From positions 1-40,429 of the forward strand of contig JAPPIX010000302.1 in NCBI GenBank assembly GCA_028820495.1: 40,429 nucleotides of DNA, read 5' to 3'. Position 1 is the first letter of the stretch, and each line of letters begins with the position of its first letter. This DNA is from Gammaproteobacteria bacterium (GTDB lineage: Bacteria; Pseudomonadota; Gammaproteobacteria; Pseudomonadales; Azotimanducaceae). Shown here in pieces: positions 11,173-40,429 of the stretch. The notes under the pieces were generated by a model. That model saw only the letters and a list, made by a program, of their open reading frames with translations. It was not told the DNA's origin and did no database searches. The position numbers and the translations under genes are program-made.

Positions 11173-11257
11173 AAAATGACGCTGGCGCCGAGGTGAGTGT
11201 TGGCTTTGATCAGGATTTTGCGTAAGGTTGCGCTGCTTTATGGAGAGGAATTCAGTG

Positions 11258-13681
11258 ATGGCCCACAACAGCCCTAACCAATCGTTTGCCTTGAAGCCTG
11301 TCGTTCGGGCAATTCGTCGGCAGTCCTTGGCCTCCGCCGGGGCGATTGCCTTGGTTTCCGGCGTGGCGGCGGCGCCGATGGCCGCGGCGCAGGAGGGCTT
11401 GACCATCGAGGAGGTGATCGTCACCGCGCAGAAGCGGGACGAGAGCGCGCAGGACGTGCCCATCAGCATCGACGTCCTCAGCGAGACCCAACTGGAGGAC
11501 TTGGGCGTTACGGACCTTGAGGACTTCGCGCAGTTGCTGCCCTCGGTGAGCTACGTTGCCTTGGGGCCGGGCAGCGGCAGCATCTACATACGCGGCATTT
11601 CGGGCGGCGGCGAGAACGTGCTTGGCTCATCGCCCAACGTGGCGGTCTATCTCGACGAGCAGCCCATCACCGCGGTGGGCGGCTACCTCAATCCCCACAT
11701 TTACGACATTGCCCGAATCGAGGCCCTGGCCGGCCCGCAGGGCACTCTGTTCGGGGCCAACTCCCAGTCCGGGAGCATTCGCCTCATTACCAACAAGCCA
11801 AATCCGGTGGGTTTTGAGGCCAGCTACGCTGTTGAGGGCAGTTCCATCAAGAGCGGCGACATCGGCTACCTGTTCGAAGGCATGGTCAACATTCCCTTGA
11901 GCGACCGCGCCGCCCTGCGGCTGGTGGGCTGGCACAAGGAGGATGCCGGCTTCATCGACAACGTGCCCTACAGCCACACCTTCAGCAACGCCAACATTCG
12001 TGCCGGGCTGACCGATCCCGCCCTCATCGCCAAGGCCGCGGACATCACCGTGGACAACGCCGACGTGGTGGAGAACGACTTCAACGAGGCCACCACCACG
12101 GGTGCCCGAGCGGCCTTGGGCATCGACCTCAACGACAACTGGACGGTGACGGCCAGCGTCATGCGCCAGGAACTGGAGGCCTCCGGCGTGTGGGACCATG
12201 ATCCAGAGGAGGTGGGCGACCTTGAGGTCACCCGCTTGCTGCCGGACGAAAGAGACGACGAGTGGACTCAAGTGTCTCTGGTGGTGGAGGGTGAGATGTC
12301 GGGCTTCGAGTTGACCTACGCCGGCTCCTATCTGGACCGTAAGTCTTACGCCACGGTGGACTACTCCTTGTACACCGATTGGTACATCAGCGGCGGCTTC
12401 GTGCAGCGCTACTACTCCTGCTACGTCGCCTACTTCGGGGAATGCACCGATCCGCGAGTGAATTCCACATATGACGACAACGTCAAGCGGGACAACCACG
12501 AAATTCGCATCGCCTCGCCGCAGGACAAGCGTTTTCGGGCATTGCTAGGTCTATTTTACGAGGACGGCAAGCACGATTTCGACTGGGAGTGGCATGTGCA
12601 TGGAATCGTTGGGCTAACCGGCCCTGGCGGGACGCCGGCCGCCGTGGAGCCGCCGGACATCTACTGGACCACCGACATGGTGCGCGGTAACGAGGAAACC
12701 GCCATCTTTGGCGAAGTGGCCTTCGACCTTGCGGACAACTTCACTGTCGCGGGCAGCTTCCGTAGCTTCGATTCCGAAGTGAGCCTACGCGGCTTTTACG
12801 GCACATTTTGGTATCCGTCACCGCGATTCGGGGCGCGAACCCCCGATGAACAAAACGCCGATTTGGTCACCAAGGACAAGGACACGGTGTTCAAGGGCAA
12901 CGTTTCTTGGCACGTCACCGACGATGTCATGCTCTACGGCACCTATTCGGAAGGCTATCGACCGGGCGGACTGAACCGAGATTCGGCCACGTTGGCTGGA
13001 TGTTGCTACGCCCCGGACTTTGTGGAGAGCTGGGAAGTCGGCGTCAAGGCCTCGGCCATGGGTGGTAGGGCGCGCTACAACTTGGCCGCCTTCACCATGG
13101 ATTGGAAGGATTTCCAGCTAAGCCGACAGGATGCCTCGGTCTCGCCGCTTACACTGACCTACAACATCGGCAACGCCCGCAGCCGCGGCATTGAGGGCGA
13201 CGTGGCTTACCTGCTGACCGAGAACTGGGACGTCAGCATGGCCTTTTCGCTGATCGATGCGGAACTCAGCGAAGACTACTGGATCAACGCGGCCAACATC
13301 GGCGACGGCAACCCCGATGCGGCGAAAGGCGATGCATTGCCTCGGGTGCCGGACTTCAAGGCCAACGTATCCACCCGCTACAGTTTCCAACTGGCGGATT
13401 TCGACGGCTACGTGCAAGCCTATTGGGTGTACACCGGGTCATCTTGGAACTCCTTGGTTGATAGTGGCGCCACCGAAGAGCGTGCCCGCAAGAAGCAACA
13501 CGCCTATGACATCCTCAACGTGGCGGTGGGCATCGACGGAGGCAATTGGAGTGCCGAACTGTTCGTGCGCAACATCACCGACGAGCGGGGGGAGGTGTTC
13601 AAAAATGCCTTTTCCTACGACAGCCGCATCACCACCAACCGGCCGAGGACCATCGGACTACGCTGGCGGCAAGAGTTTTAG
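11258..13681 (+). CDS. TonB-dependent outer-membrane receptor
   Basis: Outer-membrane receptor of 807 aa. A signal peptide (1-38, ending 'APMAAAQ') is followed by a TonB-box-like 'IEEVIVTAQKRDES', the plug domain ('DVPISIDVLSETQLEDLGVTDLEDFAQLLPSV' and 'IYIRGISGGG', broken into known plug motifs), then a beta-barrel ending in the terminal aromatic strand 'RTIGLRWRQEF'. It imports a large or scarce ligand using energy from TonB-ExbBD. The 'VTAQKR...DVP' style is typical of proteobacterial receptors for sugars, steroids or other organic substrates rather than siderophores, but the ligand is unknown. ATG 11258 was chosen since GGAGAGG lies 9 nt upstream. The DUF3604 gene starts 9 nt after the stop. 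Confidence 0.92.
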   Translation: MAHNSPNQSFALKPVVRAIRRQSLASAGAIALVSGVAAAPMAAAQEGLTIEEVIVTAQKRDESAQDVPISIDVLSETQLEDLGVTDLEDFAQLLPSVSYVALGPGSGSIYIRGISGGGENVLGSSPNVAVYLDEQPITAVGGYLNPHIYDIARIEALAGPQGTLFGANSQSGSIRLITNKPNPVGFEASYAVEGSSIKSGDIGYLFEGMVNIPLSDRAALRLVGWHKEDAGFIDNVPYSHTFSNANIRAGLTDPALIAKAADITVDNADVVENDFNEATTTGARAALGIDLNDNWTVTASVMRQELEASGVWDHDPEEVGDLEVTRLLPDERDDEWTQVSLVVEGEMSGFELTYAGSYLDRKSYATVDYSLYTDWYISGGFVQRYYSCYVAYFGECTDPRVNSTYDDNVKRDNHEIRIASPQDKRFRALLGLFYEDGKHDFDWEWHVHGIVGLTGPGGTPAAVEPPDIYWTTDMVRGNEETAIFGEVAFDLADNFTVAGSFRSFDSEVSLRGFYGTFWYPSPRFGARTPDEQNADLVTKDKDTVFKGNVSWHVTDDVMLYGTYSEGYRPGGLNRDSATLAGCCYAPDFVESWEVGVKASAMGGRARYNLAAFTMDWKDFQLSRQDASVSPLTLTYNIGNARSRGIEGDVAYLLTENWDVSMAFSLIDAELSEDYWINAANIGDGNPDAAKGDALPRVPDFKANVSTRYSFQLADFDGYVQAYWVYTGSSWNSLVDSGATEERARKKQHAYDILNVAVGIDGGNWSAELFVRNITDERGEVFKNAFSYDSRITTNRPRTIGLRWRQEF

Positions 13682-13690
13682 GCCCTCCCG

Positions 13691-15529
13691 GTGGGCCGCT
13701 TATCGCAGCTCTGCGTGAGCTTAGCGCTGGTGGGCGCGTTTGGCATTGCCGGAGCCGCTGAGTATTCGGCTCCGGCTGGCCAGAACTACCCCAAGAACCT
13801 CTACTGGGGCGATACCCACCTGCACACCCGCAACTCGGCGGATGCCTATTCGCTGGGCAACATGAACCTGAGCCCGGCCGACGCCTTCCGCTACGCCCGC
13901 GGCGAGGCGCTCACCGCCCACAACGGCATGCGGGTGCAGTTGCGCCGTCCGCTGGACTTCCTAGTGGTCTCCGACCATGCCGAGTACCTGCAGGGCTTCT
14001 ACCGCTTCTTCGTGGAAGACCCCTTGGTGACCGGTACCGCGGCGGGCAAGCAGTGGCTTGAGTACCGGGAGACGGGGGACATGGTGAGCCTGTTCGGCGC
14101 CTTCGTCGCCAGCATGGAAGATCCCGAGAACCATCCGCCGTTCCCGGAGGAAACGCGGCGCCTGATCTGGCAAGACGTCGCCGAGACCGCCGACGACCAC
14201 AATCGGCCTGGCCGCTTCACCGCCTTCATTGGCTACGAGTGGACCTCCATGATCGACGGCAACAACCTGCACCGGGTGGTCATCTACAAGGATGGCGCGG
14301 AGACCGTCGGCCAGCTGCCGCCTTTTTCCGGCCAAGACAGCTTGGATCCGCGGGAGCTCTGGAAGGCGCTGGCCCGCTATGAGGCGCAGACCGGCGGCGA
14401 GGTCCTCGCCGTGCCCCACAACGGCAACCTGTCCAACGGCATGATGTTCCCATCGGAGACCGTGGACGGCGAGCCGATTGGCCCGGAGTACGCGAGCCTG
14501 CGTGCCCGTTGGGAGCCGATTTACGAAGTCACCCAGGTCAAGGGCGACGCCGAGGCGCACCCGACCCTGTCGCCCAACGATGAGTTTGCCGATTTCGAGA
14601 ACTGGGATTGGGACAACATCGGCCGCAGCGAAGCCAAGGAAGATTGGATGCTGCAGCATGAGTACGCCCGGAGTGCCCTCAAGCTAGGGTTGGGCTTTGA
14701 TGCGGAACTCGGCGTCAATCCCTTCAAAGTCGGCCTGATCGGCAGCACCGACGGCCACAACAGCTTCTCCACCCCGGAGGAGGACAATTTCTTCGGCAAG
14801 TTCCCGGAGTCCGAACCCGGCGTTCAACGCATCGAGAACATCATGGCCGGGCGCCTATGGCAGAACTGGAACATCGTTGCCTCAGGCTATGCGGCGGTCT
14901 GGGCCAGGGAGAACACCCGGGCGGCGCTGTTCGACGCCATGAAGCGGCGGGAGGTCTATGCGACCACCGGCTCCCGAATCCGAGTGCGCTTCTTTGGCGG
15001 CTGGGACTATGCGCCCGGCCTGATCCACCAACCCGCCTACCTGGACGTCGCCTACGGCAACGGCGTGCCCATGGGCGGTGATCTCGCCGAGCCGCCCGAC
15101 GGCGCCTCGCCGACGTTCATCCTGGTTGCGGCCAAGGATCCCGATGGAGCCAATCTGGACCGGACGCAGATCGTCAAGGGTTGGCTGGACGGGGAGGGCG
15201 CCTTGCACGAGAAGGTCTATAACGTGGCTTGGTCGGGCGACCGCACGGCAGATCCGGAATCCGGGAAGGTCGGCCCCGTCGGCTCAACCGTCAACCTGGC
15301 CGACGCCACCTTCGACAACAGCATCGGCGCTGCGGAATTGGCCGTGGTCTGGCGCGACCCGGACTTTGACCCGAACCAGCGGGCCTTCTACTATGCCCGC
15401 GTCATTGAAATCCCCCGCCCGCGATGGACCACCAAGGACCAAGTTTGGTTCGGCGTCGAACTGCCGGACGACCTGCCCTTGACCATCCAGGATCGCGCCT
15501 ACACCTCGCCCATCTGGTACACGCCTTAA
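13691..15529 (+). CDS. Exported DUF3604 (PHP-like) protein
   Basis: Protein of 612 aa with an N-terminal signal peptide (1-22, 'LVGAFGIAGAAE') and a DUF3604 domain. The metal-binding PHP-like motifs are visible: 'YWGDTHLHTRNSADAY' near 36, 'LDFLVVSDHAEYLQG' near 92, 'VLAVPHNGNLSNG' near 240 and 'VGLIGSTDGHNSFS' near 350. This arrangement resembles polymerase-and-histidinol-phosphatase metallohydrolases. The family's substrate is unknown. It starts at GTG 13691 with a weak ribosome-binding site and is probably coupled to the TonB receptor upstream. Its pairing with a receptor and its periplasmic address suggest processing of an imported compound, which is inference. Confidence 0.85.
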   Translation: MGRLSQLCVSLALVGAFGIAGAAEYSAPAGQNYPKNLYWGDTHLHTRNSADAYSLGNMNLSPADAFRYARGEALTAHNGMRVQLRRPLDFLVVSDHAEYLQGFYRFFVEDPLVTGTAAGKQWLEYRETGDMVSLFGAFVASMEDPENHPPFPEETRRLIWQDVAETADDHNRPGRFTAFIGYEWTSMIDGNNLHRVVIYKDGAETVGQLPPFSGQDSLDPRELWKALARYEAQTGGEVLAVPHNGNLSNGMMFPSETVDGEPIGPEYASLRARWEPIYEVTQVKGDAEAHPTLSPNDEFADFENWDWDNIGRSEAKEDWMLQHEYARSALKLGLGFDAELGVNPFKVGLIGSTDGHNSFSTPEEDNFFGKFPESEPGVQRIENIMAGRLWQNWNIVASGYAAVWARENTRAALFDAMKRREVYATTGSRIRVRFFGGWDYAPGLIHQPAYLDVAYGNGVPMGGDLAEPPDGASPTFILVAAKDPDGANLDRTQIVKGWLDGEGALHEKVYNVAWSGDRTADPESGKVGPVGSTVNLADATFDNSIGAAELAVVWRDPDFDPNQRAFYYARVIEIPRPRWTTKDQVWFGVELPDDLPLTIQDRAYTSPIWYTP

Positions 15530-33236: not shown

Positions 33237-35414
33237 CTACAGCAAATTGACGATGCGGCTGTACTTCAGAATGATCTCGCGGTGGGGCTCGCCGACGAAG
33301 TCCCGGTCGTCGAATTCGTTGTAAACGAGGTACAAGCCGGCATTGGCGGTTTGCAGCCAAGCGAAGCGCAGGTTGGTGGCTAGGGCGTTTTCGCGGTCAT
33401 CGTATTGAACGAGGGCCTGCAGCGACATGCGCGGGGTGAATGAGTAGGTGGCGCGTAGGCGGGCGACGTTGACGGTGAAGTTCCCGCCGGGTAGGTCGAA
33501 GTCGTTGTAGATCCACGAGAAATCGGTATTGAACTTCTCGCCGATGCGCCAACGCAGATTGTTGTCCAAGTTTATTCGGTCGCCTCCGAAGCGGCCTCCG
33601 ATCCTAGAGCGGATGGAAATGCTCAGCGGCGCCGCTTGATCGGTCCAGAAAACGAGCTGGGCCTCCTTGTGGTCGTAGCCGCCCGGCGGAACCACCACGC
33701 CATCATGGATTTCAAAGGCTTCGCGCACGCCCTCGCGGGTGAAGTTGATGCCGGTGTGAATCTCCAGGCCCGACTTCCATTCCCAGTGATTGTCGATGTG
33801 CAGGAACATCGACTCGTGGTAGTCGTCGCTGTAGCCCCAATGGCCGATGTAGGCGATGTGCGGGCGCAGTTCGTGCAGGCCCCAAAGGTCTTTCGGGCGG
33901 ATGCGCCGCAGTGTGCGCCCGCTCACCTTGCGGTAGGCCCGCCGGGCAAGGAAGCCCACTTCGGGATTGAAGTTAGTGGCCACCTCGGTGTACGAGACGG
34001 CGTTCGCCCAGTTTTGGGAGTTGTAGTCCGCGCCGAGCTTGAAGGCGTGGTCACTGCCGCTCAGATGCGGCGAGTCGGTCTTCGCGGCCCACCCGTTGAT
34101 GGAGGCCACATCGCCCAAGCCGAGACGTCCGTCGATGGCGTAGGTGCGATTGGAGCCGGCGCCGCCGATTTCATGCGCACCATCGCGGTTGACGAACATG
34201 ACGCCCAAGGAGGAACGGTTGGGCAGTTCCTGCTTGAGGCGCGCCACGGAGTAGTCGTTGCGCGGCGTCACCCCGGTGACGGCATCGGAACGCATGTGCA
34301 ACAGGCCCACCAGGGTGTTTGTGCCCACTTTGCCCGACAGGCGCAGGCCGCCTTCAATGGGAATCCGGCCACCGTCTTCGCTGATGCCAATGCGGCGGCT
34401 GAAGAACAGTTCCGCTTGGCCCGGGTCGCCGACTGTGAACAGGCCCGCGTTCTCAAGGAAAAACGGGCGCTTCTCGGCGAAGAAGAGGCTGAAGCGGTCG
34501 AGATTCACTTGAATTTCGTCCGCCTCCACTTGGGCAAAGTCCGTGTTGTAGGTGGCATCCAAGGTCAGGCTGGGGGTTAGCGAGTACTTGATGTCCACGC
34601 CGAGTTCGGTATCCGTTTTGGTGCCCTGGAGCGACGGTCCGCCCTTATGCCCCATAGCCAAGCCATAGGGCATGAACTGGAGGTTGCGTTGGGGCGGCAC
34701 CTCCAACCCGGTCACGGCGCCCGCCTGCGAAACCCTGAGCAGGTTGTGCTGGCGCGGCAAGGGCGCCCAAAAGGCCTGCTCGTAGTTGCGGCGGATGTTG
34801 CGCTGGAAGTTAATGCCCCAGGTCTGGACGGCGTCGCGGTCGTAACGCAGGGAGGTGAAGGGGATCAGAAACTCGGCGCTCCAGCCGTAGTCGCCAATCC
34901 GGCTGGCCACGGTCCAGCTCGTATCCCAGTTGAGGTTGAAGCCCCCGACGCCGCCGGCGCCAAAGCGGCGCCCAACGCCTTCCTGGGTGACTTGGCCATC
35001 GTATTCCACGCCAGCGGGGTTGGTGCCAAAAATGAAACCGTTCTGGCGGTCCTGAAAGGTGTCTAGGAGAAACTGAAAGCTGTCCGTTTCGTTCAGGTCG
35101 CTGTCGCGCCGGCTGTCGGCGACGATGATCCCGCTTGGCTCGCTGTCGTAGCAGACTGCGCCGATGTAGAGGGCGTCCTCAGTGAAGCCGACCCACACTT
35201 CGGTGCGCTGGCTGGCCGGGCGCCCTTCATAGGGCCGCGTTTGAGTGAAACCGGTGGCCGCGGGTAGGGATTGCCAGGCGGGGTCGCCGAGCACGTCGCC
35301 ATCAATGACGGGCGTCGCTTCAAGGGCCGATGCGGTGAGGGCCGGTGCCGCTGCGAAGCCGTTGGGGCATGCGCACAGCAGGCACAGGGTCAGCGTTGCG
35401 ACGCGCCGCTGCAT
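33237..35414 (-). CDS. DUF5916 outer-membrane protein with CBM9-like N-terminal domain
   Basis: Protein of about 725 aa with a signal peptide (1-22 from ATG 35414). Residues 30-210 form a carbohydrate-binding family 9-like domain ('PVIDGDVLGDPAWQSLPAATGF', 'EVWVGFTEDALYIGAVCYDSEP', cited as separate motifs, and 'ETDSFQFLLDTFQDRQNGFIF'). The remainder is DUF5916, a predicted beta-barrel with 'FAEKRPFFLENAGLF' near 320 and alternating strands to a terminal 'REIILKYSRIVNLL'. Function is unknown. The ATG overlaps the upstream DUF1801 stop by one base (TGATG), suggesting coupling. An in-frame start 19 codons upstream is possible but would bury the signal peptide. Confidence 0.85.
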   Translation of the reverse strand: MQRRVATLTLCLLCACPNGFAAAPALTASALEATPVIDGDVLGDPAWQSLPAATGFTQTRPYEGRPASQRTEVWVGFTEDALYIGAVCYDSEPSGIIVADSRRDSDLNETDSFQFLLDTFQDRQNGFIFGTNPAGVEYDGQVTQEGVGRRFGAGGVGGFNLNWDTSWTVASRIGDYGWSAEFLIPFTSLRYDRDAVQTWGINFQRNIRRNYEQAFWAPLPRQHNLLRVSQAGAVTGLEVPPQRNLQFMPYGLAMGHKGGPSLQGTKTDTELGVDIKYSLTPSLTLDATYNTDFAQVEADEIQVNLDRFSLFFAEKRPFFLENAGLFTVGDPGQAELFFSRRIGISEDGGRIPIEGGLRLSGKVGTNTLVGLLHMRSDAVTGVTPRNDYSVARLKQELPNRSSLGVMFVNRDGAHEIGGAGSNRTYAIDGRLGLGDVASINGWAAKTDSPHLSGSDHAFKLGADYNSQNWANAVSYTEVATNFNPEVGFLARRAYRKVSGRTLRRIRPKDLWGLHELRPHIAYIGHWGYSDDYHESMFLHIDNHWEWKSGLEIHTGINFTREGVREAFEIHDGVVVPPGGYDHKEAQLVFWTDQAAPLSISIRSRIGGRFGGDRINLDNNLRWRIGEKFNTDFSWIYNDFDLPGGNFTVNVARLRATYSFTPRMSLQALVQYDDRENALATNLRFAWLQTANAGLYLVYNEFDDRDFVGEPHREIILKYSRIVNLL

Positions 35415-35851
35415 CAGGCGGAATGGTACTTGGCGCGCATGGCGCCTACCGATTCGCGGATCAGTTGGCAAAGCACATCGTTGTCCACGTCATCCAGTTT
35501 GTTGATGTAGAGGCAGGATTTGCCGGTCTTGTGCTTGCCGAGCCGTTCCAGCAGTTCGGCGCTTCCCGCAAAGCCGGGCATGATGTACAGCACTAGGGAT
35601 TGCTTGCGTGGTGAGACGCCGATGAGCGGCATTTCGCCCTCCCGGCCGCTCTGGTAGGCGTAGCGGTAGCTGCCGAACCCAATGATGCTCGGCCCCCACA
35701 TCTTGGGCGCCTCACCCGTCTCGGCGGCCATGAATTCCATGACGGCGCGGCAATCGTGCTGCCGCACGGAGTTTTCCACGGCATCCAGGAACTGCCCTAC
35801 GCTGGCGCCGGTGGGAGCCGTCTTGTTCCCGGCTCGTCTTGCCTGTGTCAT
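35414..35851 (-). CDS. DUF1801 (YdhG-like) protein
   Basis: Protein of 145 aa of the DUF1801 family: 'SVGQFLDAVENSVRQHDCRAVMEFMA' region, 'MWGPSIIGFGSYRYAYQSGREGEMPLIGVSPRK' region with the G-Y-R-Y core, 'SLVLYIMPGF' and 'KHKTGKSCLYINKLDDVD' ending 'LCQLIRES'. The fold is known but its function is not. I chose ATG 35851; the 39 residues upstream in the longer frame are translation of the two-hairpin repeat and not protein-like. Its stop overlaps the DUF5916 start by one base. Confidence 0.83.
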   Translation of the reverse strand: MTQARRAGNKTAPTGASVGQFLDAVENSVRQHDCRAVMEFMAAETGEAPKMWGPSIIGFGSYRYAYQSGREGEMPLIGVSPRKQSLVLYIMPGFAGSAELLERLGKHKTGKSCLYINKLDDVDNDVLCQLIRESVGAMRAKYHSA

Positions 35852-36222: not shown

Positions 36223-37980
36223 TTGGCATATGTAGGCGCAACCCCGACGGGAAGCGGAATTCCGTGTCCGGAGGGAGAATTCGAAGGGCTGGCTGAAGCG
36301 CTGGATTTCGCGGCGCAAGGGCGTACCGGCTACAACTTCTATGGCGGCTCCGGTGAGTTGGAGGCCGTCCTGCCCTATGCCGCGCTCCGTGAACAGGCTC
36401 TCGCCACCGCCCGCCGATTGGCCCACCTCGACCTGCCGCGTTACTCCCGGGTGGCCATCATCGCGGACACGAATCCGCTATTTCATCGTTTCTTCTTTGC
36501 TTGCCAGTATGCCGGATTGATTCCCGTGCCCATGCCCGCCGCCTTGCAGATGGGCGGCGGCGACGCCTATGTGGGCCAGATTCAACGCATGATGGAAAGC
36601 TGCGGGGCGGCCGCGGCCGTGGCGCCGGACAGCTTTCTAGACCTGTTGCAAACCGCCGCTGAGCCTTTGGGCTTGGCCTTTGTCGGCGGCGAGGCGGATT
36701 TCGACGCCTTGCCGGAATCCACCACGCGGCTGTCCCCTGTGCGCGACGATGAGCCCGCCTATCTCCAGTACACGTCCGGCAGCACCCGCTTTCCGCGGGG
36801 CGTGGAGATGTCACAACGCGCCGTGTTGTGCAATCTTCGCGAAATCTCGGAAGTCGGCACTGAGATTCGCGACGATGACCGGCTGGTGTCCTGGCTGCCG
36901 TTCTACCACGACATGGGCTTGGTGGGATGCGTCTTGGCACCCTTGATTCGCGCCCTGTCGGTCGATTACCTCAGCCCCCGCACCTTCGCTATGCGTCCGC
37001 GTCTGTGGCTGAAGCTGATTTCCGAGAATCGCGGCACGTTGTCATCGAGCCCGCCCTCCGGCTATGGCCTGTGCGCGACTCGGCTGCGGCTTTCCGACCG
37101 CGAGAAGTACGATCTCTCGTCTTGGCGCGTTGCTTGTGTTGGCGCGGAGCGCATCAATCCACGGCTGCTTGAGCGATTCAGTCAGGTATTGGGCCCCACC
37201 GGGTTCAACCCCAAGGCCTTTGTCGCCTGTTACGGCATGGCCGAATGTGGGCTGGCCATCAGCTTTGCGCCCTTGAACAACGGCCTTGATGTGGACGTGG
37301 TGGACAAGGAATCGATTAGCGCTTCCGGCTTGGCGAAGCCCGTCACCGGCGAAAGCGGCGCTCTGAAGCTGGCCGATTGCGGGGCCGTTATGCCGAGCTA
37401 CGAGTTCCGGATTTGCGATGATGAGGGCCGTGAAGTGGCGGAGCGCCACTGCGGACACATCTTTGTGCGTGGCCCGAGCGTCATGCGCGGCTACTTCAAC
37501 GACGCCGAGGCAACAGCTGAGGTGTTGGACGATTCAGGTTGGTTGGACACTGGCGACATTGGTTACCGCATCGGCCGTCATCTCGTCGTCACCGCCCGCA
37601 GCAAGGACGTCATTATCGTCAATGGCCGCAACATCTGGCCTCAGGATTTGGAGCAGTTGGCGGAAAGTTCCCCAGGTGTTCGCATTGGCACCACCACTGC
37701 CTTTGAAGCCACTCGGCCGAATGGCGACCCGTTGGTCGTCCTGGTGGTGGAGAGCAAGCGAGCCGAGCCCGACCTGCCGAGGCGCATTGAATCCTTGGTG
37801 CGCGAGCATTTCGGCGTCACTTGCTACGTTGAGATCGTGCCGCCGCGGACCCTGCCACGCACCTCCTCGGGCAAGCTCTCCCGGGTGACTGCGCGGGCCG
37901 GATTCCTTGACCGGACCCATTGGGATGAAGCCGGCAATCCAGCGCCTGCCATGGAGAGCGCCCGGCTCGCCAGTGGCTGA
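36223..37980 (+). CDS. Fatty acyl-AMP ligase / acyl-ACP synthetase of the sphingolipid operon
   Basis: Adenylate-forming enzyme of 585 aa. Core motifs are 'YLQYTSGSTRFPRGVEMSQ' (ATP loop, near 180), 'WLPFYHDMGLVG', 'TLSSSPPSGYGLCATR', 'ACYGMAECGLAISF', 'GWLDTGDIGYRIG' (A7) and the C-terminal 'TSSGKLSR' lysine loop. 'PFYHDMGLVG' and the extended middle region mark the fatty acyl-AMP ligase branch, which passes acyl-AMP to an acyl carrier protein. The ACP gene two places downstream is the obvious partner, so it likely loads fatty acid for serine palmitoyltransferase, like the acyl-ACP synthetase of the Caulobacter ceramide locus. TTG 36223 is the only ordinary start that keeps the N-terminus and has a weak ribosome-binding site. 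Confidence 0.87.
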   Translation: MAYVGATPTGSGIPCPEGEFEGLAEALDFAAQGRTGYNFYGGSGELEAVLPYAALREQALATARRLAHLDLPRYSRVAIIADTNPLFHRFFFACQYAGLIPVPMPAALQMGGGDAYVGQIQRMMESCGAAAAVAPDSFLDLLQTAAEPLGLAFVGGEADFDALPESTTRLSPVRDDEPAYLQYTSGSTRFPRGVEMSQRAVLCNLREISEVGTEIRDDDRLVSWLPFYHDMGLVGCVLAPLIRALSVDYLSPRTFAMRPRLWLKLISENRGTLSSSPPSGYGLCATRLRLSDREKYDLSSWRVACVGAERINPRLLERFSQVLGPTGFNPKAFVACYGMAECGLAISFAPLNNGLDVDVVDKESISASGLAKPVTGESGALKLADCGAVMPSYEFRICDDEGREVAERHCGHIFVRGPSVMRGYFNDAEATAEVLDDSGWLDTGDIGYRIGRHLVVTARSKDVIIVNGRNIWPQDLEQLAESSPGVRIGTTTAFEATRPNGDPLVVLVVESKRAEPDLPRRIESLVREHFGVTCYVEIVPPRTLPRTSSGKLSRVTARAGFLDRTHWDEAGNPAPAMESARLASG

Positions 37981-38915
37981 AGCTGAAGGCTCCATTCGTT
38001 CCCACTAAGCCAACCACTGTTGCCGTCACCGGTCTGACCGGCTTCATCGGCAGGCGTCTGGCGATCAAGCTCACTGACGCGTTCATCGAGACGCGGGCCA
38101 TCATCAGGCGGCCGGCCGCCGGGCTGGATGCGCGCATCTCGCCTTGGATGGCAGCCTTGGACGATGTGGATGCGTTGGCCGGTGCGCTGTCTGGAGTGGA
38201 CGCCGTTGTGCATCTCGCCGGCACGGTGCGCGGTGCGCGGCCCTGGGATTTTGCCGCCGCGAACAGTGAGGCGGTTACTCATTTGTGCGCTGCTGCCCTG
38301 TGCCAGGCCAAGCCGCCGGCCATGCTGCTGGTTTCGTCGCTGGCCGCCACCGAGCCGCAGCTTTCCGACTACGCGGCCAGCAAGCGAGCCGGCGAGCAGG
38401 CGCTGGCGGCACACCCGCAGATAGATTCAACCATCATTCGCCCGCCCGCCGTTTACGGCCCTGGGGATCGTGAAATGACGCCCCTGTTCCGCCTGATGCG
38501 GTGTGGCTGGATCTTGGTGCCCGGCAATCCCGCCCAAAAGTTGTCCTTTCTCTATGTCGATGACTTGGCTGACGCTATCCTCTGCTGGCTGAAGGCGCCG
38601 CGGCGCTTCCGGAGACGGCAGTTCAGCATCGACGATGGCGCCGAAGACGGCTACGATTGGCCCGCCATAGCGGCGGCGGCGGGTGCCCGCAAGACTCGGA
38701 TGCTGGTGATTCCCACGCCCTTGCTGCAAGGAGCGGCCAAGGCAAACGTCGGCTTGTCGCGTCTCTTGGGCCGTGCGCCGATGCTGACCCCGGGCAAGGT
38801 TCGAGAGCTTGGCCACGATCGTTGGGTGGGCGGTGGCGATGACTTCGCCGCCGCCACCGGTTGGCAGCCAAGGCATAATTTGGCCAGTGGACTTGAACTG
38901 ACATTTAACGGCTAA
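37977..38915 (+). CDS. cerR: NAD-dependent epimerase/reductase, CerR-like (CTG start)
   Basis: Extended short-chain dehydrogenase, 312 aa if begun at CTG 37977. Read this way it opens with 'TVAVTGLTGFIGRRLAIKL', the NAD(P)-binding Rossmann motif (T18-G-L-T-G-F-I-G25). Then follow 'VVHLAGTVRGA', 'LLVSSLAATEP' and the catalytic Y132-A-A-S-K136. The first ATG, at 38148, would remove the whole cofactor loop. There is no ATG, GTG or TTG in frame between the upstream stop (37926) and 38148, while CTG 37977 overlaps the ligase stop as CTGA. In Caulobacter a homologue in the same setting (CerR) reduces the keto group of the ceramide intermediate. A frameshift near the gene start is the alternative. 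Confidence 0.8.
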   Translation: MKLKAPFVPTKPTTVAVTGLTGFIGRRLAIKLTDAFIETRAIIRRPAAGLDARISPWMAALDDVDALAGALSGVDAVVHLAGTVRGARPWDFAAANSEAVTHLCAAALCQAKPPAMLLVSSLAATEPQLSDYAASKRAGEQALAAHPQIDSTIIRPPAVYGPGDREMTPLFRLMRCGWILVPGNPAQKLSFLYVDDLADAILCWLKAPRRFRRRQFSIDDGAEDGYDWPAIAAAAGARKTRMLVIPTPLLQGAAKANVGLSRLLGRAPMLTPGKVRELGHDRWVGGGDDFAAATGWQPRHNLASGLELTFNG

Positions 38916-38932
38916 GGGCCATAAGAAACGCG

Positions 38933-39169
38933 ATGGACAGCCCTCTTGAACTGGAATTGCGTGAGCTGCTTGGCGGCATAACGCCATTGCCCCCGGACTT
39001 CACATCGGATACGGACTTGCTGGATGCGCTAGCCCTTGAATCGGCGCAGATCATGGAGTTCGTCATGGAAGTGGAGGACCACTTCGATGTCATCATCGAC
39101 CAGCGGCAACTGGCCGAGGTGCGCAACATTGCCCAGTTGGCGGCTGTGGTCGGCAAGGCCGTCGCATGA
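38933..39169 (+). CDS. acpR: Acyl carrier protein for sphingolipid synthesis
   Basis: Acyl carrier protein of 78 aa. The phosphopantetheine attachment serine is S37 in 'ALALESAQIMEFVMEVED', which replaces the usual D-S-L with E-S-A, as in specialised ACPs. The acidic helix II, 'EFVMEVEDHFDVII' and 'LAEVRNIAQLAAVV' (helix IV) complete the four-helix fold. It starts 17 nt after the epimerase stop, and its stop overlaps the serine palmitoyltransferase start as ATGA. It is expected to carry the fatty acyl group from the acyl-AMP ligase to the SPT. Confidence 0.9.
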   Translation: MDSPLELELRELLGGITPLPPDFTSDTDLLDALALESAQIMEFVMEVEDHFDVIIDQRQLAEVRNIAQLAAVVGKAVA

Positions 39170-40353
39170 GCCTGCTGGCCAAGTTTGCCGCGGTGGATGA
39201 AGCCCGACGCGCCCTGGGCGAGGCCGACCCTGCCCGCACGGTTATTGAACGCTTGGAGTCCGCCACCTTGGGGATCATCAAAGGCGCCCCCATCACTTTG
39301 GCTGGCACCAACAACTACCTAGGGATGACCTTTGACGAGGAAGCGGTCGAAGCGGGCCGCGACGCATTGACGGAAGCCGGCACCGGCACCACGGGGTCTC
39401 GCATGGCCAATGGCACCTATGCGGCCCACGTCGCGCTCGAAGCGGAGCTGGCGGACTTTTACGGCTATCCGGCAGCGGTGGTGTTCTCCACCGGCTATGC
39501 GGCCAATCTGGGCACCCTGTCGGCGCTGCTCGGCGCCGGCGATGCGGTGCTGCTCGACGTCGACGCCCATGCCAGCCTGTTCGATGGCTGCCGCCTGTGT
39601 CCCGCCGATCTCTACACCTTCCGGCACAACGATCCAGCCAGCTTGGACAAGCGCTTGGGCCGTCTCGGAGACCGGGCGCGAAACGCGTTGGTTGTCGTGG
39701 AGGGCCTTTACGGCGTGCTCGGCGACCGTGCGCCCTTGGCCGACATCGCGGCGGTCAAGGATCGCCACGGCGCCTGCCTGCTGGTCGATGAGGCCCACTC
39801 CCTCGGCGTGGTCGGCGCTGAGGGACGGGGGGTGGTCGAGGAGGCCGGCGTCATGGACCAGGTGGACTTCGTGGTGGGCACCTTCAGCAAGAGCCTGGGC
39901 ACCATGGGCGGCTTCTGCGCCAGCCGCCATGAGGAAGTGGCGCTGTTTCCCTATGCCAGCCGGCCCTACATGTTCACCGCCTCGCCGTCCCCGGCCACCA
40001 TTGCCTGCACCCGGGCTGCCCTGCGGACGCTGCGCGCCCGCCCGGATCTGAAGCAACGCCTATGGCGCAACGCGAACCGCTTGCACCAAGGCCTCTCCCA
40101 GCTTGGCGTGGACGTGGGCGAGGCTCCCAGCCCGGTGATGCCCGTGCGCCTTCAGCAAAGGGAAGCGGCCTTGGCGGCATGGAACGGCTTGTTGGCCGAG
40201 GGCGTGTACGTCAATCTGTTCCTGCCTCCGGCGGCACCGGGTGGCGGCAGCCTGCTGCGCATGAGCGTTAGCGCCGCTCACACTGACGATCAGATCGACT
40301 GCATCGTCGCCGCCGTGGCCAAGGTGATTAAGGCCATTGGCGCAATGGATTGA
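39166..40353 (+). CDS. spt: Serine palmitoyltransferase (alpha-oxoamine synthase)
   Basis: PLP-dependent alpha-oxoamine synthase, 395 aa. K242 in 'GTFSKSLGTMGGF' binds PLP, H135 in 'DVDAHASLFDG' stacks on the ring, and D208 and H211 in 'LLVDEAHSLGVVGAEGRG' (cited to G-V-V-G) bind the pyridine nitrogen and phenolate. 'TNNYLGMT', 'GTGTTGSRMANGTYAAH' and 'FSTGYAANLGTLSALL' are also conserved. Family members are SPT, KBL, AONS (BioF) and ALAS. The operon with an acyl-AMP ligase, ACP and CerR-like reductase, and no biotin or heme genes, points to SPT: serine plus acyl thioester to 3-ketosphinganine, the first step of sphingolipid synthesis. It is the last gene in the window; a ceramide synthase gene is not seen. 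Confidence 0.87.
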   Translation: MSLLAKFAAVDEARRALGEADPARTVIERLESATLGIIKGAPITLAGTNNYLGMTFDEEAVEAGRDALTEAGTGTTGSRMANGTYAAHVALEAELADFYGYPAAVVFSTGYAANLGTLSALLGAGDAVLLDVDAHASLFDGCRLCPADLYTFRHNDPASLDKRLGRLGDRARNALVVVEGLYGVLGDRAPLADIAAVKDRHGACLLVDEAHSLGVVGAEGRGVVEEAGVMDQVDFVVGTFSKSLGTMGGFCASRHEEVALFPYASRPYMFTASPSPATIACTRAALRTLRARPDLKQRLWRNANRLHQGLSQLGVDVGEAPSPVMPVRLQQREAALAAWNGLLAEGVYVNLFLPPAAPGGGSLLRMSVSAAHTDDQIDCIVAAVAKVIKAIGAMD

Positions 40354-40429
40354 CCGTAACCAGTGTGCCGTCCCGCCAATAAGTGGGTTTTAGTCGCTAG
40401 GCCATTTTGGTTCCCGGCAAGGCGCGACG

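Follow-up and report, generated by a model that had tools for sequence, protein, structure and literature searches.

A predicted ceramide operon of the proteobacterial type in an uncultured Candidatus Azophilus-like gammaproteobacterium

Gammaproteobacterial carriers of ceramide genes have been published before, among them Escherichia coli B, Azotobacter vinelandii and Pseudomonas luteola (PMC9386255, PMC11324152). Escherichia coli BL21(DE3) has the four genes aasR, epi, acpR and spt (ECD_02851-02854), with the ceramide synthase gene yghO (cerS), the acyltransferase gene named 'aca' in that cluster (PMC9386255), transcribed apart from them. According to excerpts of the same article, BL21 AcpR was labelled with a phosphopantetheine precursor, AasR of the studied relatives acylates AcpR but not CoA, and Spt prefers acyl-AcpR (PMC9386255). 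Caulobacter crescentus possesses the set aasR, cerR, acpR and spt (CC_1162-CC_1165), with cerS (CC_1154) in another operon, and its CPG/CPG2 genes include a lipid kinase, a nucleotidyltransferase and a second set for LptF/LptG, as described in the accessible parts of PMC11324152 and PMC12275187. There, ceramide phosphoglycerates arise through a ceramide kinase together with an enzyme that forms CDP-glycerate (PMC12275187, in part), and the order of the CerS and CerR steps is left open in the portion available of PMC11324152. Another gammaproteobacterial sphingoid base is made through an alpha-oxoamine synthase by SgaAB of Pseudomonas fluorescens MYb115, which relies on an iterative polyketide synthase (PMC12134224, from extracts), in contrast to the ligase and free carrier protein encoded in the DNA analysed here.

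This DNA, hereafter the window, is the whole stretch of 40,429 nucleotides that forms contig C61 of a 5.1-Mb metagenome-assembled genome (MAG; completeness 90.9%, contamination 5.2%). At its end we find the same four genes as in E. coli BL21(DE3), in the same order, on one strand and with similarly tight spacing. Very probably they constitute the core module for de novo ceramide synthesis of alpha-, beta- and gammaproteobacteria, a reading based on gene content, homology, active-site residues, phylogeny and co-occurrence. Judged from its sequence, the operon is genuine and largely a standard proteobacterial ceramide operon, whose gene set, gene order and occurrence in Gammaproteobacteria are already published; it leaves the known biochemistry unchanged. 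What counts against this reading is that it rests on a MAG with cerS and the transport genes on other contigs, that the start of cerR is unclear and that CerR reaches no NCBIfam cut-off.

Operon layout and gene products

An open reading frame and coordinate check places aasR, cerR, acpR and spt head to tail at the window's end (Table 1). The initial annotation had described a fatty acyl-AMP ligase, an epimerase/reductase, an acyl carrier protein and an alpha-oxoamine synthase in succession, and the reading frames and family profiles agree with it. Its gap of 17 nt between cerR and acpR and its ATGA overlap between acpR and spt also stand, so that acpR lies immediately 5' of spt, with an overlap of 4 nt, and aasR two genes upstream of acpR.

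Table 1. Coordinates of the operon, of the element behind it and of genes on other contigs of the same genome
Feature	Position	Strand	Remarks
aasR-type fatty acyl-AMP ligase / acyl-ACP synthetase	36223..37980	+	585 aa, TTG start
cerR-type NAD-dependent reductase (epimerase/dehydratase fold)	37977..38915	+	5' end uncertain
acpR-type acyl carrier protein	38933..39169	+	78 aa
spt, serine palmitoyltransferase	39166..40353	+	395 aa
MITE-like dispersed element, first 67 nt	40363..40429	+	remainder at start of contig C157
cerS homologue	C391:927-2045		heads same-strand gene run
LpxO/OlsC-like hydroxylase	L101 3675-4451 (contig C391)		PF05118; under NCBIfam cut-offs
GMC oxidoreductase	L101 4441-6063 (contig C391)		in cerS gene run
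Rifampin-phosphotransferase-like two-domain dikinase	L100 93-2720 (contig C157)		875 aa

On the other hand, the CTGA overlap previously read between aasR and cerR is not borne out. The frame is open at this place and the sister species do not support the overlap, which leaves the cerR start uncertain. Reading on from the preceding in-frame stop, one meets the first ATG, GTG or TTG of cerR at 38148, within the gene and past the NAD-binding motif. Two sister species (loci L045 and L046) show a possible TTG start 22 and 37 nt past the aasR stop, respectively, and the window codon that aligns with it by eye is ACT. It is possible that cerR starts at the CTG at 37977; a different non-standard start or an error in the sequence is also possible.

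One could wonder whether the pathway ends at a free sphingoid base, or decays in this strain, with the cerR start lost and an element located after spt. The 5' end of cerR without a standard start codon, the inverted-repeat element behind spt and the lack of an SPT match in two genomes of the same genus (G002 and G003) would fit this idea. However, all four reading frames are free of stop codons, the aligned parts of the four proteins (AasR, CerR, AcpR and Spt) are still 94-98% identical in the closest sister (L044), the element sits downstream of the spt stop, and the ceramide synthase homologue is an open frame of 377 residues. We therefore hold a truncated or decaying pathway to be very improbable and retain the ceramide operon as our reading.

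AasR scores 692 bits against the fatty acyl-AMP ligase model NF006624 (PRK09192; cut-off 600) and 192.5 bits against PF00501. CerR (80 bits with PF01370) and AcpR (42 bits with PF00550) both reach the Pfam cut-offs, and neither reached a cut-off in the NCBIfam profile search. The CerR translation displays the GxxGxxG and YxxxK motifs. In AcpR, Ser37 (LESAQ) is the presumed phosphopantetheine site, and by eye the AcpR of E. coli BL21 has a serine in the same LES context. Identity to the BL21 proteins amounts to 52% for Spt, 43% for AasR, 39% for CerR and 43% over 44 residues for AcpR.

Elsewhere in the window, positions 33237-35471 encode, on the strand opposite to the operon, a protein of 744 aa whose residues 259-362 match DUF5916 (90.5 bits), and the region 11228-15529 encodes a TonB-dependent receptor and, after it, a DUF3604 protein (772 bits).

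Spt among the alpha-oxoamine synthases

The family of Spt is large, and an alpha-oxoamine synthase next to a ligase and a carrier protein could also belong to a small biosynthetic cluster for a non-sphingolipid product, such as an aminoketone, a secondary metabolite or whatever a reaction of BioF/KBL type would yield. Spt does score 318 bits on the BioF model and 303 bits on the glycine C-acetyltransferase model, and in sister species spt is followed by a gene with a distant resemblance to PigC/RedH ligases (228-230 bits, cut-offs 1300-1350). The first two scores nevertheless miss their cut-offs (426 and 460 bits, respectively), whereas Spt passes that of the curated model NF047599 for rhodobacterial serine palmitoyltransferase (560.4 bits, cut-off 500). 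It remains under the cut-off of the sister model NF047603 (428.7 bits, cut-off 670). Its best PDB matches are the serine palmitoyltransferases 2x8u and 2jg2, which we take to be Sphingomonas enzymes.

The tree points in the same direction. In a midpoint-rooted IQ-TREE phylogeny of 65 rows, with some long branches among distant rows, the window Spt falls into a clade of 37 rows (support 100/100) together with the SPT of E. coli BL21 and two Sphingomonas SPTs, and E. coli BioF and KBL lie outside it. A BioF/KBL-type function for spt was thus rejected by family scores and tree. The co-occurrence of SPT with CerS and the genome's genes of head-group and Lpt type, both described below, further argue against a non-sphingolipid product, to which we give only a slight chance. 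Altogether, the separation of SPT from BioF and KBL in the tree and a ceramide synthase homologue in the genome support the ceramide pathway proposed initially, in so far as sequence comparison can indicate it.

Active-site residues were compared with those of the S. paucimobilis enzyme. Equivalents of His159, Asp231, His234, Lys265 and Arg390, presumably the PLP lysine and active-site residues, are all present in Spt. As the BioF and KBL rows share these five residues, they mark an intact alpha-oxoamine synthase and not an SPT as such. Arg378 of the Sphingomonas SPT, to which we would ascribe a functional role in S. paucimobilis, is a leucine in the window Spt. In the 37-row clade only the two Sphingomonas references carry this arginine, which is therefore not family-defining. 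Altered chemistry as the meaning of the Leu substitution was considered and rejected, since the SPT of E. coli B carries the same residue; this BL21 enzyme has been assayed (PMC9386255).

Unlinked genes and a possible route to an exported lipid

The ceramide synthase had been expected outside the window, and the genome search places its homologue on contig C391. With E. coli YghO as query, a single homologue was found in the genome (49% identity over 374 of 380 residues, E 1.6e-113). A FemAB-like gene (PF04339) on contig C26 was also considered as ceramide synthase and rejected, its best E value to YghO or to the C391 protein being 2.2.

On C391, cerS heads a same-strand run comprising an NTP-transferase-like gene, a DAGK-type lipid kinase, the hydroxylase and the GMC oxidoreductase of Table 1 and a second nucleotidyltransferase. 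Homologues of this hydroxylase also occur at other gammaproteobacterial spt loci (L048, L052 and L054), as do homologues of the GMC oxidoreductase (L048, L050, L051 and L053). The LptF, LptG, metallophosphoesterase, CDP-alcohol transferase and nucleotidyltransferase-like genes that neighbour spt at L048 have homologues on contig C152 (52-61%), which also carries a flippase with 40% identity to that of L050. Counterparts of most of these C391 and C152 genes share one locus with spt at L048, where cerS is cut by the contig end and where the lipid kinase and the flippase have no match. It looks as if the ceramide gene set were split in the genome of the window, with assembly gaps between contigs.

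Like in E. coli BL21(DE3), cerS would be transcribed apart from the four-gene operon; there, however, yghO and LptF/LptG-annotated genes adjoin the operon, whereas their counterparts here are on other contigs. As compared with Caulobacter by description, the genome likewise has genes of the lipid kinase, nucleotidyltransferase and LptF/LptG types, but its whole ceramide set, operon included, is spread over at least three contigs instead of one region of 17 genes, and GMC oxidoreductase and LpxO-like genes come in addition.

A route can be proposed in which substrates, reaction order, head group and transport are carried over from the studied relatives. AasR would activate a free fatty acid and load it onto the dedicated carrier AcpR. 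Spt would then condense acyl-AcpR with L-serine to 3-oxo-sphinganine, with loss of CO2. Reduction by CerR and N-acylation by the unlinked CerS, whose sequence is debated in the literature, would give dihydroceramide. The lipid kinase, NTP transferases and LpxO-like hydroxylase of C391, together with the CDP-alcohol transferase, LptF/LptG-type proteins and flippase of C152, would probably provide a phosphorylated head group and transport to the outer membrane. These last assignments, and with them possible counterparts of the ceramide kinase, CpgC and CpgD-type cytidylyltransferase of the ceramide phosphoglycerate pathway, would follow from family membership (DAGK_cat and NTP_transferase proteins on C391, a CDP-OH_P_transf-type homologue on C152), the Caulobacter Cpg proteins being known here by description.

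Relatives, host and the genes behind spt

We searched a panel of 58 genomes, comprising the genome itself, 8 of the same genus, 28 of the same family and 21 of the same order. A match to SPT at E <= 0.001 was found in 39 of them, many of these matches being BioF/KBL-like. SPT was counted at 50% identity or more, a cut-off of our own. SPT is then present in 17 genomes and CerS in 18: both occur in 16, one alone in 3 and neither in 39 (Fisher p 3e-11, uncorrected for relatedness). The exceptions, which we count against the ceramide reading, are G003 and G034 with CerS but no SPT and G018 with SPT but no CerS. The in-frame stop codon found in the counted SPT of G021 and in the counted CerS genes of G012 and G023 also weighs against it.

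Gene neighbourhoods were compared by tblastn (E <= 1e-5) at 38 loci, 37 from the SPT search and that of E. coli (L043), with flanks of up to 10 kb that are often cut by contig ends. Among the named alpha- and gammaproteobacterial SPT loci (L044-L067), a cerR homologue is found at 23 of 24 and an aasR homologue at 20 of 24; at L056 both genes lie about 7-9 kb from spt on the opposite strand. The 13 loci L068-L080, mostly actinobacterial and bacteroidete, have neither gene. Four actinobacterial ones (L068-L071), where aasR and cerR have no match on the locus, show a hydroxylase-like match (39-43%) at about 300 nt or less from the SPT-like gene, on the opposite strand. When the window spt DNA was compared with 5426 complete E. 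coli genomes, 1675 gave a match, always chromosomal and never covering 80% of the query; the best 8 of the 1675, those listed, are all annotated spt. The E. coli sphingolipid cluster is consequently not limited to E. coli B.

The host was suspected to be a gammaproteobacterium, and this is confirmed by the nearest named SPTs, which come from the Gammaproteobacteria MAG SB0675_bin_3 (98%), a Pseudomonadales MAG (91%) and Candidatus Azophilus lithoversatilis (89%). NCBI taxonomy assigns Azophilus to the Pseudomonadales, Candidatus Azotimanducaceae. Judging by isolate names, MAGs of this kind presumably come from sponges. Our literature search returned nothing that ties a ceramide operon to Azotimanducaceae or Azophilus, and serine palmitoyltransferase was absent from the sponge-symbiont literature among the matches listed. 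With this operon, an uncultured Azophilus-like lineage of Pseudomonadales would join the bacteria that should make sphingolipids, with a route inferred from fatty acid to exported lipid, and lipid chemists would know which compound class to look for where the lineage is abundant.

Behind spt, the window runs into a MITE-like dispersed element. Counting this copy, a search at E <= 0.01 located it at 17 places in the genome, some of them weak or partial. Both inverted ends are present in 7 copies, 5 of which measure 159 bp. The terminal inverted repeats are 23 bp long (GTGTnCnGTCCCGC...), and the left flank is CTA in 4 of the 6 copies inspected. That C61 stops at 40429 was deduced from loci L012 and L083, whose flank is cut. 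The tail of the window aligns to positions 1-67 of the 159-bp copies and the head of contig C157 (L100 1-86) to positions 74-159, and the C157 gene after the element shares 97% identity with the immediate downstream neighbour of spt at L044. As the two contigs carry opposite ends of the element and the genes beyond correspond, C61 and C157 are very probably adjacent in the genome. Beyond the element there would most probably be the gene for a rifampin-phosphotransferase-like protein, which in three sister species (L044-L046) comes immediately after spt.

Its product combines a PPDK_N ATP domain with a PEP-utilizers domain, the swivelling His domain; in the profile search the C-terminal PEP domain was unmatched and every NCBIfam cut-off was missed. 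The best PDB matches, 5fbs, 5hv1 and 5hv2, are titled phosphoenolpyruvate synthase, and we take them to be rifampin phosphotransferases. No rifampin phosphotransferase appeared among the matches listed in the corresponding literature search. The gene is found only at L044-L046 among the 38 loci. These belong, with L047 and L048, to genomes of the same genus (by contig coordinates, L044-L048 correspond to G008, G006, G007, G005 and G004, respectively), and L047 has neither this gene nor the reductase-like gene that follows it, which resembles 2-hydroxy-3-oxopropionate reductase (219 bits, cut-off 341). In the family, 78 of 150 genomes match the phosphotransferase-like protein at E <= 1e-30, and at least 23 of the 150 encode a nearly full-length relative with 40-57% identity. 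Since such relatives are common, including in G002, where SPT and CerS both lack a match, a role in sphingolipid synthesis is speculative, and a dedicated enzyme was kept as a low-probability reading only. One could nevertheless imagine, though we find it unlikely, that in one branch the ceramide operon gained a fifth and a sixth gene behind spt, and that this dikinase and the tartronate-semialdehyde-reductase-like enzyme could supply phosphoglycerate for the sphingolipid head group or phosphorylate it.
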